Shown here one piece after another: positions 26,343-62,772 of a stretch of 64,000 nucleotides of DNA; positions within the stretch are counted from its first letter, which is position 1; each line of letters begins with the position of its first letter. This DNA comes from a candidate division KSB1 bacterium (GTDB lineage Bacteria > Electryoneota > RPQS01): contig JACRMR010000003.1 of NCBI GenBank assembly GCA_016214895.1, positions 62,001-126,000 of the forward strand. Direction: 5' to 3'. A program made the translations under genes and the position numbers. Under the pieces are notes generated by a model. It was given only the letters and a program-made list of their open reading frames with translations. It ran no database searches and was not told the DNA's origin.

Positions 26343-26840
26343 AATCTTGCTCCAGGATGTCACGTTCTTCTGTCGCGCCGCACAGCCGTGCGCGCTCGGG
26401 GATACCTGACACCCCCCTATAATCCCCCCTTGAAAGGGGGGATAGGGCTCGGGAGTGATGATTTCTGCTCTTAACTGTTGCGAAGCGCCACTCCGTCAGG
26501 TCGCAACAACTCAATGTTGGCACGCTGTCCCCCCGTTCACGGGGGGACAACAGTGGGGTTCGGTCAATCTTGCTCCGGAATGTCACGTCCTTCCGTAGCA
26601 CCGCACAGCCGTGCGCGCTCGGGGAAATACCTGACACCCCCCTATAATCCCCCCTTGAAAGGGGGGATAGGGCTCGGGAGTGATGATTTCTGCTCTTAAC
26701 TGTCGCGAAGCGCCACTCCGTCAGGCCGCAACAACTCAATGTTGGCACGCTGTCCCCCCGTTCACGGGGGGACAACAGGGGGGGGCAATCTTGCTCTGGA
26801 ATGTCACGTCCTTCCGTAGCGCCGCACAGCCGTGCGCGGT
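26343..26840. repeat. Tandem repeat, about 222 bases, 2.2 copies
   Basis: Unit starts (AATCTTGCTC) are at 26343, 26566 and 26787, so the period is 221-223. Each full unit contains AGCCGTGCGCGCTCGGG, the hairpin CCCCCCTTGAAAGGGGGG, a single-copy-looking middle and CCCCCCGTTCACGGGGGG. The two full copies differ at only a handful of bases. No open frame in it looks like a protein. The unit combines three of the short palindrome types scattered in the rest of the window. Confidence 0.85.
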
Positions 26841-31958: not shown

Positions 31959-34859
31959 TCAGTGCGCCGCGAGCCAACTTGGGCCGTGGCCGATGTCCAC
32001 GATCACCGGAACGGACATCGGCAGCGCGTGCTGCATCTCCTCGCGGACCATCGTCTCCAGCGGTTCGCGGTCGGCTTCCGCGACCTCGAACACGAGTTCG
32101 TCGTGAACCTGTAAGAGCATCCGGGCGGCAATCTTTTCCGAATGCAAGCGGCGATGAATGCCGATCATCGCGAGCTTGATCATGTCGGCGGCGCTGCCTT
32201 GAACGGGGGTATTGATGGCCGTGCGCTCGGCGAATTCGCGGACTTGCCGTTCCTTGGCCTCAATGTCCGGGATGCGCCGCTGGCGGCCCAGAATCGTCTC
32301 GACGAATCCCCGTTCCCGGCACGTCACGATGGTTCGATCCATGAATTCGCGGACCCCCGGATAGAGCTGGAAATAGGCATCGCGGAACGCTTTGGCCTCG
32401 TTTCTCGGGATGCCCAGCTCCTGCGCGAGGCCGAAATCGGTTTGGCCGTAGATGATGCCGAAATTGACCGTTTTGGCCGCGCGCCGCATGTCCGAATTGA
32501 CCGTAGTCAGGTCGCACTTGTAGATCAGCGCGGCGGTCTCCGCGTGAATATCGCCGCCCCGGTTGAAGGCCGCGACCAGCCGCTCATCGCCCGACAAGTG
32601 CGCCATGATCCGCAGCTCGATTTGGCTGTAATCGGCGGAAACCAGAGTCCAGCCTGCCTCGCCCGGGACGAAGGCCTCGCGGATTCGGCGGCCGACTTCG
32701 GTTCGAATCGGGATATTCTGCAGGTTGGGGTTGTTGGAGGCCAATCGTCCGGTCGCCGCCACGGTTTGACTGAACGTCGTATGGACGCGCCCGGTTCGCG
32801 GATGCACCATCTGCGGCAGCGCCTCGACGTAGGTGCTCTTGAGTTTGGCCAGCGTCCGGTATTCGAGCAGTTTGAGCGGCAGATCGTGCATCGGCGCGAG
32901 GGTCGTCAGCGTGTCCACATCGGTGGACGGGCCGGTCTTGAGCTTCTTCTGGACCGGCAGCTTGAGCTTGTCGAACAGGATTGTGGCGAGCTGTTTGGTT
33001 GAGTTCAGGTTGAACGATTCTCCCGCCGCGCGATAGCACTCGTCGGTCAGCCGGATCAGATCGCGATCCAGCTCTTTGCTCATTTCGGCCAGCAGCTCGA
33101 CATTCAGCCGGATGCCGTTGAACTCCATTTCGCGCAGCACGGGCAGGAGCGGCAGTTCGACCTCGGTCAGGATCTTCTCCTGTGAGGCGAGCATGGGCTT
33201 GAGCTTGTGCGCCAGCCGCAACGCGTAATCGGCGTCCTCGCAGGCGTATTCGCAGACCCGCTCGACCGGAACCTCGCGCATGGTGATCTGGCTCTTGCCC
33301 AAGCCGATCAGCTCGTCGGTGGCGATCTTCGGCAATTGCAGGTAGTCCCGCGCCAGCGCGTCAATGCTGAGCGTGCGGCTGCCGGGGTTGATGATATAGG
33401 CCGCGAGGATGCTATCGAACACAATCCCGCAGGTCACGACCCCGTGGTTCAGCAGCACCAGCGTGTCATATTTCAGGTTCTGTCCGGTCTTGGGCACCTG
33501 CTCGTCTTCATAGAGCGCCCTCGCGAAGGACAAGAACGCCTCGCTGCCCCTCCTGCTCTCCCCCCCGTTCACGGGGGGGCTGGGGGGGGGTCCAAGATCG
33601 GCATTTGGATTATCGGCCATGCCCCCTCCGAACAGATCCAACCTCCGGCTCTCCCTCCCGCTCATGTGGCCTTCGCTCTCCCCCCCGTTCACGGGGGGGC
33701 TGGGGGGGGTTCTCAGATCGGCATTTCGATTTTCGATTTTGGATTTTGGATTTCCGGCATCCCCCAGACTCGCCACATCCACATACCACGCCTCACCTTC
33801 GACGATCGCGAAACTGGCGCCCACGATTTCGGCTCGCATCGGATCGACGGATGTCGTTTCGAGATCCATGGAAAGCAGGGGGCGCTCGCGCCGCCACTTA
33901 TCCACAAGTTGCGATAGTGTCGCTCGATCCTGAATCAAGCGGTAGTTCCGCACCGACAGCGGTGCCTGCGCTCCGGCCGGAGCCGCCGCACCCGCCATCT
34001 TGCGGATGCGCTCGAGCAGCGAGTAGAGTTCGAGTTCGTTCAACAGCCGCTCGAGTTCCGCATTCAGGATCGGCTTGAGATCGCACTGGTCATGCCCGAA
34101 ATCGACCGGCGCGTGCGTATCGATGGTGACGAGTTCCTTGCTCATGAGCACCTGTTCGCGGTCCCGGAGGAGCGCGTCCCGCGCTTTGCCCGGCTTCATT
34201 TCCGCGGCGGCGTCGAGCACAGCCTCCACGGAACCATGATCCAGCACCAGCTTGACCGCTGTTTTCGGTCCAATTCCGGCCGCTCCGGGCACGTTATCGG
34301 ACGTGTCTCCCATCAGCGCGAGCACGTCAATCACTCGTTCCGGCGGGACGCCGAAGTGGGCTTCGACCTCCTTTGGCCCCATCACGAGCGTCTCTTCCTT
34401 GCTCGGATTATAGAGAAAGACGTGCTCACTCACCAGTTGCTGGTAATCCTTGTCTCCGGTCACCATGAAGACATCATAGCCCTCGGCTTCCGCCTGCCTG
34501 GCCATGGTGCCGATCACATCGTCGGCCTCCCAACCCGGTCGAGCCAGAATCGGAATTCCGGTGGCCTTCAAGACCTGATCGAGTCGGCCCAGTTGATCCA
34601 CCAACTCCTCGGGCATCTTCTGTCGCGTGGCTTTGTACTCGGTATAGGCTTTGTGGCGAAAAGTCGGTTCAGCGGTATCGAAGACAATCGCCAGATGCGT
34701 CGGCCGCTCTTTCTCGATCAAGCTAACCAGCGTATTCAGGAAGCCGAAAATGGCGGACGTGATCTCGCCCCGGCTGGTCTTGAGCGGGTTGCGCAGGAAG
34801 GCGAAGTGCGCGCGATACATCTGCGCCGAGCCGTCGATCAGGAAGATTCGCTTGTCCAT
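31959..34859 (-). CDS. polA: DNA polymerase I with in-frame repeat insertion
   Basis: A 966-residue replication and repair polymerase. The 5' nuclease domain occupies about 1-290 (FLIDGSAQMYRAHFA, GDKDYQQLV, GDTSDNVPGAAGIGPKTA). The 3'-5' exonuclease domain at about 315-525 keeps D-L-E, NLKYD and YACEDADYAL, so proofreading is likely active. The polymerase domain has DYSQIELRIMAHLSGD (motif A), RRAAKTVNFGIIYGQ (B) and VHDELVFEV (C). About 70 extra residues at about 367-437 interrupt the exonuclease domain between the third strand and the following helix. They hold two PPSPPVNGGES peptides, encoded by two copies of a palindromic repeat 120 bases apart. The leader at 34911-34943 also carries a dispersed hairpin. 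Confidence 0.95.
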   Translation of the reverse strand: MDKRIFLIDGSAQMYRAHFAFLRNPLKTSRGEITSAIFGFLNTLVSLIEKERPTHLAIVFDTAEPTFRHKAYTEYKATRQKMPEELVDQLGRLDQVLKATGIPILARPGWEADDVIGTMARQAEAEGYDVFMVTGDKDYQQLVSEHVFLYNPSKEETLVMGPKEVEAHFGVPPERVIDVLALMGDTSDNVPGAAGIGPKTAVKLVLDHGSVEAVLDAAAEMKPGKARDALLRDREQVLMSKELVTIDTHAPVDFGHDQCDLKPILNAELERLLNELELYSLLERIRKMAGAAAPAGAQAPLSVRNYRLIQDRATLSQLVDKWRRERPLLSMDLETTSVDPMRAEIVGASFAIVEGEAWYVDVASLGDAGNPKSKIENRNADLRTPPSPPVNGGESEGHMSGRESRRLDLFGGGMADNPNADLGPPPSPPVNGGESRRGSEAFLSFARALYEDEQVPKTGQNLKYDTLVLLNHGVVTCGIVFDSILAAYIINPGSRTLSIDALARDYLQLPKIATDELIGLGKSQITMREVPVERVCEYACEDADYALRLAHKLKPMLASQEKILTEVELPLLPVLREMEFNGIRLNVELLAEMSKELDRDLIRLTDECYRAAGESFNLNSTKQLATILFDKLKLPVQKKLKTGPSTDVDTLTTLAPMHDLPLKLLEYRTLAKLKSTYVEALPQMVHPRTGRVHTTFSQTVAATGRLASNNPNLQNIPIRTEVGRRIREAFVPGEAGWTLVSADYSQIELRIMAHLSGDERLVAAFNRGGDIHAETAALIYKCDLTTVNSDMRRAAKTVNFGIIYGQTDFGLAQELGIPRNEAKAFRDAYFQLYPGVREFMDRTIVTCRERGFVETILGRQRRIPDIEAKERQVREFAERTAINTPVQGSAADMIKLAMIGIHRRLHSEKIAARMLLQVHDELVFEVAEADREPLETMVREEMQHALPMSVPVIVDIGHGPSWLAAH
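33555..33709 (-). repeat. Two palindromic elements inside polA
   Basis: GCTCTC followed by a C-run, GTTCAC and a G-run, then CTGGGGGGG, occurs at 33555-33590 and again at 33675-33709, exactly 120 bases apart, each followed by AGATCGGCATTT. On the coding strand both read PPSPPVNGGES in frame. A flanking segment (33721-33760) has the repeat GATTTT-GATTTTGGATTTTGG, read as KSKIENRN. Confidence 0.85.
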
Positions 34860-34910: not shown

Positions 34911-34943
34911 CGCCGAGCGGGGTCTTCAGACCCCGCCGGAAAC
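34911..34943. repeat. Dispersed hairpin in the polA leader
   Basis: CGCCGAGCGGGGTCTTCAGACCCCGCCGGAA has the pattern of the CCGCCGAG-GGG-CCC-GCCGGAA repeat family. It lies about 52 bases before the polA start. Confidence 0.75.
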
Positions 34944-35116
34944 CGCTTTCGCAATTCAACGTCTCCATCAGTGCAATCTAACTAATCGCTGCAAATAGGC
35001 AAGCCGTGCGGTTCGTGGATCCCTCTTCGGTGGACCGTCCCGCTTGACTTTCTCCCAGATTCTGCTTCTTTGTAGAGGTGTCTTTCTAACCATTTGTTCA
35101 AGTGAAAACCATTCCC

Positions 35117-35437
35117 ATGTCTGCCGACCCGAAACCACAGCAAATCAATATTCAGTTAGACGAGAAGATCGCCGAGGGGATCTACTCCAACCTCGCTTTG
35201 ATCTCCCACAGCCCGGCTGAGTTCTTTATCGACTTCGCCCGCATGGTACCCGGCGCGCCCAAGGCCACTGTCCAGTCGCGGATTATCATGACTCCGTCGC
35301 ACATGAAGTTCCTAATGAATGCGATCAAGGAGAATATCGAGCGATACGAGAAGCAGTTTGGCGAGATTAAGCTGCACGGTCAGCCGCAGCCCGGCGGCGG
35401 CGGCTTCGGCTTCAAACCCGGCGGCGAAGGCCAGTAG
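35117..35437 (+). CDS. DUF3467-family protein
   Basis: A 106-residue soluble protein. The core (INIQLDEKIAEGIYSNLALISHSPAEFFIDFARMVPG, KATVQSRIIMTPSHMKFLMNAIKENIERYEKQFG) matches the DUF3467 family, common in FCB bacteria and of unknown function. A Gly/Pro-rich tail (PQPGGGGFGFKPGGEGQ) follows. ATG at 35117 is taken; a GTG at 35102 would add five residues. Neither has a Shine-Dalgarno sequence. Dispersed repeats fill the next 200 bases. Confidence 0.85.
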   Translation: MSADPKPQQINIQLDEKIAEGIYSNLALISHSPAEFFIDFARMVPGAPKATVQSRIIMTPSHMKFLMNAIKENIERYEKQFGEIKLHGQPQPGGGGFGFKPGGEGQ

Positions 35438-35464: not shown

Positions 35465-35612
35465 GTCCCCCTCCGTTCGCGGGGGGGTCAGGGGGGCTCG
35501 GAGCCCCCGCCGAGCCGTGCGTCCTCGCGCGGCCGGACTCGGAGCGTCACGCCGGGTAGGGCACCGGATAGCAAGTTACCCCGAGCAGGGTCTCCCGACC
35601 CTGCCGGAATCC
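35465..35612. repeat. Cluster of three dispersed repeat types
   Basis: A C-run/GTTCGC/G-run palindrome at about 35467-35496, then CGCCGAGCCGTGCG-CCTCGCGCGGCCGGA-TCGGAGCGTCA (35508-35550), then GAGCAGGGTCTCCCGACCCTGCCGGAA (35582-35609). The second unit is nearly identical to 39040-39081. All lie between two rightward genes. Confidence 0.8.
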
Positions 35613-62440: not shown

Positions 62441-62772
62441 CATCGGAGCATCGGCTCTCCCCCCACATCCTGTGGGGGGCCGGGGGGGTGCGCGTCTTCG
62501 CTCATCGGGAACTCTCGTCCGACATCGGAGCTCGGCACTCCCCCCCACATCCTGTGGGGGGCCGGGGGGGGCGCGTCTTCGCGCATCGGGAACTCCTCGT
62601 CCGGCATCGGAGCATCGGCTCTCCCCCCACATCCTGTGGGGGGCCGGGGGGGTGCGCGTCTTCGCGCATCGGGAACTCCTCGTCCGGCATCGGAGCATCG
62701 GCTCTCCCCCCACATCCCGTGGGGGGCCGGGGGGGTGCGCGTCTTCGCGCATCGGGAACTCCTCGTCCGGCA
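62441..62772. repeat. Tandem array, four copies of an 82-83-base unit
   Basis: Unit starts (CATCGGAG) are at 62441, 62523, 62605 and 62688. Each unit holds CCCCCCACATCCTGTGGGGG, CCGGGGGGG and GCGCGTCTTCGC-CATCGGGAACTC. The units differ by only a few bases. It begins 28 bases after the pfkA stop. Confidence 0.9.

Follow-up and report, generated by a model that had tools for sequence, protein, structure and literature searches.

The DNA polymerase I (PolA) encoded in the 64,000-nucleotide stretch of DNA analyzed here (the window, G000:C3:62001-126000; source genome G000, 3.2 Mb in 26 contigs) is interrupted in frame by palindromic repeats. The insertion is real and REP-like in its behavior, and it is neither an RPE nor a GTAG/CGTC REP. 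As REPs inside polA and tRNA-synthetase genes have already been published (PMC3733652), the in-gene insertion itself is a fresh case of a known phenomenon. The new part is the pairing of such palindromes with genes of the DUF559 nuclease family, which the sequence comparisons below point to as their probable partner. The polA locus is composed as follows.

34859..31959, minus strand: polA, DNA polymerase I, 966 aa, carrying both inserts, with the 5′-3′ exonuclease, 3′-5′ exonuclease and polymerase domains all matched
33666..33752, minus strand: insert 1, residues 370-398, NPKSKIENRNADLRTPPSPPVNGGESEGH, an AT-rich repeat plus a palindrome
33680..33699, minus strand: palindrome copy of insert 1, CCCCCCCGTTCACGGGGGGG (GTGAAC on the coding strand)
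33621..33665, minus strand: candidate ancestral-linker remnant, residues 399-413, MSGRESRRLDLFGGG (GRxFxRFG in relatives), a suggestive assignment
33549..33620, minus strand: insert 2, residues 414-437, MADNPNADLGPPPSPPVNGGESRR
33560..33579, minus strand: palindrome copy of insert 2, CCCCCCCGTTCACGGGGGGG

As a preliminary description of this DNA had proposed, two C-run/GTTCAC/G-run palindromes lie in frame in PolA with their starts exactly 120 bp apart, and both are read as PPSPPVNGGES in the minus-strand 966-aa ORF; they belong to a 61-bp direct repeat with 92% identity. An alignment of 90 PolAs, drawn from the family, order and phylum of the source organism as well as from Bacteroidota, Chloroflexota and others confirms the inserted segment and its predicted place between a strand and a helix, where relatives are short. 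The linker running from the strand that ends in GEAxYV to the next helix has 83 residues in the window PolA versus 30 in same-family PolAs, so that the approximately 70 extra residues of the preliminary description have to be reduced to a net excess of 53 (159 nt, in frame). A comparable insert is absent from 89/89 other aligned PolAs, in which the longest linker has at most 37 residues. The 3′-5′ exonuclease motifs DLE, NLKYD and YACEDADYAL are all intact, again as described. In an AlphaFold2 model of PolA (mean pLDDT 86.7), residues 369-432 have a pLDDT below 50 and are located between a confident strand (356-361) and a confident helix (430-451), and the extra stretch is predicted to be a disordered loop.

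Insert 1 is a composite of the AT-rich repeat NPKSKIENRNADL, present at some 12 further sites of the genome, and the palindrome, which likewise recurs elsewhere. Because the linker-like MSGRESRRLDLFGGG separates the two palindrome copies, the stretch looks like two inserts: MSGRESRRLDLFGGG may be a leftover of the family linker, which would place the inserts at two separate positions. This similarity is no more than suggestive: 3.7% of shuffling trials produced a sequence that reaches the region's best linker score, and the MSGRESRRLDLFGGG remnant itself falls slightly short of that score.

Copies of this REP-like palindrome are dispersed and restricted mainly to the family of the source organism. 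Allowing up to two mismatches, CCCCCNTTCNCGGGGG has 12 matches in the window versus 1.3 expected, a number that no shuffle reached. With at most one mismatch, CCCCCGTTCACGGGGG is found in 21 copies throughout G000 versus none for the reversed control pattern, and some of these copies are in frame inside genes. All 11 family genomes (11/11) contain CCNCCGTTCNCGGGGG, in 1 to 54 copies each; outside the family, it has 5 copies in one member of the order (G012) and 0-1 in the other genomes tested, including the rest of the phylum. Three further copies in the window are intergenic.

26530..26545, plus strand: exact core, in the first member of a duplicated block of ~225 bp that also holds CCCCCTTTCAAGGGGG
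26755..26770, plus strand: exact core, in the second member of the ~225-bp block
35470..35485, plus strand: imperfect copy CCTCCGTTCGCGGGGG, downstream of the gene at 35102-35437

The preliminary description had listed them at 26531, 26751 and 35467; the first two are exact cores with slightly different starts, and the third is imperfect.

GTTCAC is one of many loops. The pattern C6-N(4-14)-G6 occurs 257 times in G000 versus 23 times for a control pattern, and the loops of these C-run/G-run palindromes include ACAGGATGT, GTGAAC, AACTCGCTT and AGCTTGACT. There are several palindrome families that have one architecture and differ in the loop. Their common unit is about 34 nt long and consists of a C-run, 2-6 nt, a second C-run, the loop, a G-run and AGA. 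In its GTGAAC version, 5/6 reading frames are open and the sixth contains TGA. Elsewhere in the window, four CCCCCCACATCCTGTGGGGGG-type palindromes form an array at 62459-62726 with a spacing of about 82 bp.

To be scored as lying in a gene, a palindrome had to have the same coding strand and frame on both sides according to a codon-usage score trained on long ORFs. By this test, the majority of the family's copies fall outside genes. Of 107 GTTCAC copies, 10 passed; an eleventh, in MnmE of G010, was included after its ORF had been inspected. In G000 such copies are found in PolA (twice), LeuRS, a CHAD protein, a SpoIID protein and a 511-aa protein, and in its relatives in LeuRS (G005), MurQ (G006), RarA/MgsA (G003), an FAD oxidoreductase (G007) and the above-mentioned MnmE, the LeuRS copies spanning two genera. 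The frames used are PPVNGG (6 copies), P[PS]VHGG (4) and PRERG (1), and the other two open frames are used by none. When palindromes with any loop are considered, 18/69 are in frame within genes in the sampled stretches of G000 from which these counts were taken. A SpoIID-like ORF of 697 aa (G000:C20:350298-353313) contains five different in-frame palindromes together with SSLIPHPSSL repeats; it could be a gene in decay or a highly tolerant one.

Several enzymes have received such sequences repeatedly. In LeuRS, the loop between GTEIEF and VFTTRADTLFG holds repeat-derived inserts in 7/9 family members (G000, G001, G002, G005, G007, G008 and G009), no two with the same sequence; G006, G010 and the two members of the order have none. 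In G000, LeuRS carries the loop AACTCGCTT in frame, read as PPSELGG. MurQ and MnmE likewise display differing repeat types in one loop across genera. The MnmE proteins of G005 and G009 have an in-frame insert of 131-161 aa that holds a complete DUF559 domain with a palindrome-encoded peptide on each side. The MurQs of the sister species G006 and G010 both carry inserts with differing palindromes and, as both are filled, they offer no empty site from which exact insertion boundaries could be read. We read these recurrent loops as repeated invasion filtered by the tolerance of surface loops; a sequence-specific hot spot is possible. The LeuRS, MurQ and MnmE loops are natural insertion experiments that map how much added sequence an essential enzyme tolerates, up to a whole nuclease domain in MnmE. 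The leuS gene of G001 also has a second insertion site, occupied by the three-fold repeat ERHTPPYDGSALPCGTTPVNGGES (73 aa).

DUF559 (PF04480) is a Vsr-like PD-(D/E)XK nuclease domain whose Pfam name denotes unknown function. Since MnmE contained such a domain, DUF559 genes were tested for flanking palindromes. Matching flanks (score of at least 16, within 220 bp upstream and downstream) were found for 27/33 DUF559 genes in the set from the window's phylum and for 14/19 in other phyla, versus 4/300 random control positions. C-run/G-run palindromes are present on both sides of 33/52 DUF559 genes, versus 2/2000 random positions, which lay mostly within genes where palindromes are rarer, and versus 0/19 Y1_Tnp genes of the family and order, a better control of n = 19 only. 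Ten of the 52 DUF559 genes lack any C-run/G-run palindrome. The upstream and downstream loops agree in 24/33 cases when taken from the same gene and in 33/1056 when taken from different genes. The conserved residues of the predicted DUF559 nuclease core (D, ExDG and H) are kept.

The two features also co-occur across 156 genomes, mostly fragmented drafts: among those in which DUF559 was detected, 21/38 are palindrome-rich, and among the others 6/118. Counting only genomes from outside the phylum, the numbers are 7/23 and 3/105 (p = 0.0002), and the reversed control pattern shows no such difference. G001, G018 and G023 are palindrome-rich with no DUF559 detected. Loop and protein correlate weakly (Mantel r = 0.19), and phylogeny may account for part of this. 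Among plasmid-collection records of named organisms, 6/10 DUF559 examples have matching palindromes; this search, and no other, used a composite DUF559 sequence as the query in place of an exact G000 protein. In Sphingomonas parapaucimobilis, palindrome-flanked DUF559 genes are located at yqeY/dnaG and sufB/sufC, and in Deinococcus psychrotolerans one is found between paaD and paaZ. Pseudanabaena, Picosynechococcus and Azospirillum lipoferum are also among the matching examples. Long ORFs of G106, G127 and G130 furthermore contain in-frame DUF559 insertions. A DUF559 domain within a long ORF of G002 (G002:C434) has no palindromes, and the peptide adjacent to it may be Hint/intein-like.

A direct link within G000 is provided by the loop AACTCGCTT, which brackets the DUF559 gene at C21:14708 and sits in frame in LeuRS. 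The GTTCAC loop itself brackets 0/3 DUF559 genes of G000, all of which have other loops; nearest to it are the GTCCAC/GTGGAC loops that surround the MnmE-internal DUF559 domain in G005 and G009. The PolA palindrome fits the DUF559-flanking architecture, with its C-run/loop/G-run stem and a third run on one side. Nucleotide-level comparisons of MurQ and of the G017 DUF559 genes revealed no clean pair of empty and filled sites with a target-site duplication, and no sharp boundary at the palindromes was found between two related DUF559 copies of G017. The multi-copy DUF559 of G143 was considered as proof of nuclease-driven transposition and rejected. Its about 15 copies, several of them internally deleted, share a TIR element of ~630 bp with the ends GGTAGTGTCAAAA...TTTTGACATTACC, and DUF559 is there a hitchhiking cargo.

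Combining these findings, we consider it fairly probable that the PolA inserts are REP-like miniature repeats and that a DUF559 nuclease is their spreading partner. Copies of the miniature repeat would have entered polA without disturbing its reading frame and would have persisted there owing to the flexibility of the linker. The DUF559 nuclease would recognize or cleave the palindrome, either as a hairpin or as a target site, and cassettes and bare palindromes would then spread in the manner of RAYT/REP. The GTTCAC loop of PolA would be an orphan, acted on in trans or left by a lost partner. That the nuclease mobilizes the palindromes is what we infer. For the wider proposition, namely that DUF559 and C-run/G-run palindromes constitute a widespread bacterial mobile system parallel to RAYT/REP, whose palindromes and sometimes nuclease cassettes repeatedly enter permissive loops of housekeeping proteins in frame, we put the chances at about even. 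If true, there is a second nuclease family, unrelated to RAYT, with palindromes of its own around its genes in several phyla; the C-run/G-run repeats gain a testable partner, and DUF559 gains a possible function.

The palindromes could instead be target sites of homing-like DUF559 cassettes, with bare copies spreading by slippage, gene conversion or an unknown transposase. We regard this as unlikely, although it survives best among the alternatives: it predicts the bracketing and the loop matching equally well, and some palindrome-rich genomes with no detected DUF559 agree with it, as does Caulobacter VsrA, a DUF559 protein connected with mismatch repair and DNA damage and not with mobility (PMC12907096). 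Palindrome abundance, however, follows the presence of DUF559 across genomes, and different DUF559 genes tend towards different loops, both of which speak against this reading.

REP-like palindromes are common in bacteria, and RAYT transposases are their recognized partner, thought to spread them. The repeats described here might therefore be ordinary REPs moved by RAYT (Y1_Tnp) transposases, their association with DUF559 being incidental, and we judge this a little less likely still. It gains from the occurrence of Y1_Tnp genes in nearly all genomes of the set and from GTAG/CGTC REP families known inside polA and other repair genes. It loses on the absence of two-sided C-run/G-run palindromes from the Y1_Tnp genes of the family and order, whose flanks match through different repeats, for instance GCAGGGTC-n-GACCCTGC-CGGAAT. 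Nor was a GTAG or CGTC tag seen by eye at the ends of the palindromes, which are typically flanked by a C-run and TCT/AGA. RAYT was accordingly rejected as the partner: Y1_Tnp is near-ubiquitous in the genome set and other repeats flank it. The window also contains GC-rich inverted repeats at 34915-34943 (GAGCGGGGTC..GACCCCGCCGGAA) and 35583-35607 (GAGCAGGGTC..GACCCTGCCGGAATC), which are of the type that flanks the family's Y1_Tnp/RAYT genes and represent a second, RAYT-type REP system in G000.

An adaptive insert that alters proofreading is very improbable. REPs do recur in replication and repair genes elsewhere, and the authors of that work speculated on mutators (PMC3733652), but residues 369-432 of PolA are predicted to be disordered, the catalytic motifs are intact, similar inserts are present in unrelated enzymes, and no PolA relative shares this one. 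An assembly or binning artefact is hardly credible: the genome is a draft and C/G homopolymers are difficult to assemble, but the frame is kept over +159 nt in an intact 966-aa ORF, the copies are not identical to each other (92% over 61 bp), and independent genomes have like inserts in LeuRS, MurQ and MnmE.

Among known systems, MITEs with terminal inverted repeats are similarly small, non-autonomous, dispersed repeats capable of making in-frame fusions; the unit described here is a single palindrome. Caulobacter VsrA contains the same DUF559 domain of the PD-(D/E)XK superfamily and has been connected with a cytosine methyltransferase and with mismatch repair (PMC12907096). In the portion of the literature searched, to which subscription journals did not belong, we found no report tying DUF559 to repeats or mobility, or Vsr to REP. 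The preliminary description had likened the PolA palindromes to the protein-coding elements of Rickettsia (RPE, ~150 bp; PMC10969869). The comparison is fair as an analogy, as both occur within numerous unrelated protein genes, in frame and with the function apparently intact, but the elements are not RPEs: they are ~34 nt long, belong to another phylum, have an unrelated sequence and probably have a DUF559 partner.

The closer precedent is that of the REPs described by Di Nocera and colleagues inside the genes for DNA polymerase I, UvrA, RecB and tRNA synthetases, including different REPs at about one site of recB (PMC3733652). Those repeats too are short (20-40 bp), dispersed and mostly intergenic, sometimes lie in frame in polA, uvrA, recB and tRNA-synthetase genes, and have as their partner a gene with its own palindromes on either side. 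The repeats found here differ from them in their C-run/G-run stem, which has a third run added at one side, and in bracketing a gene that encodes DUF559 and not a Y1 transposase.
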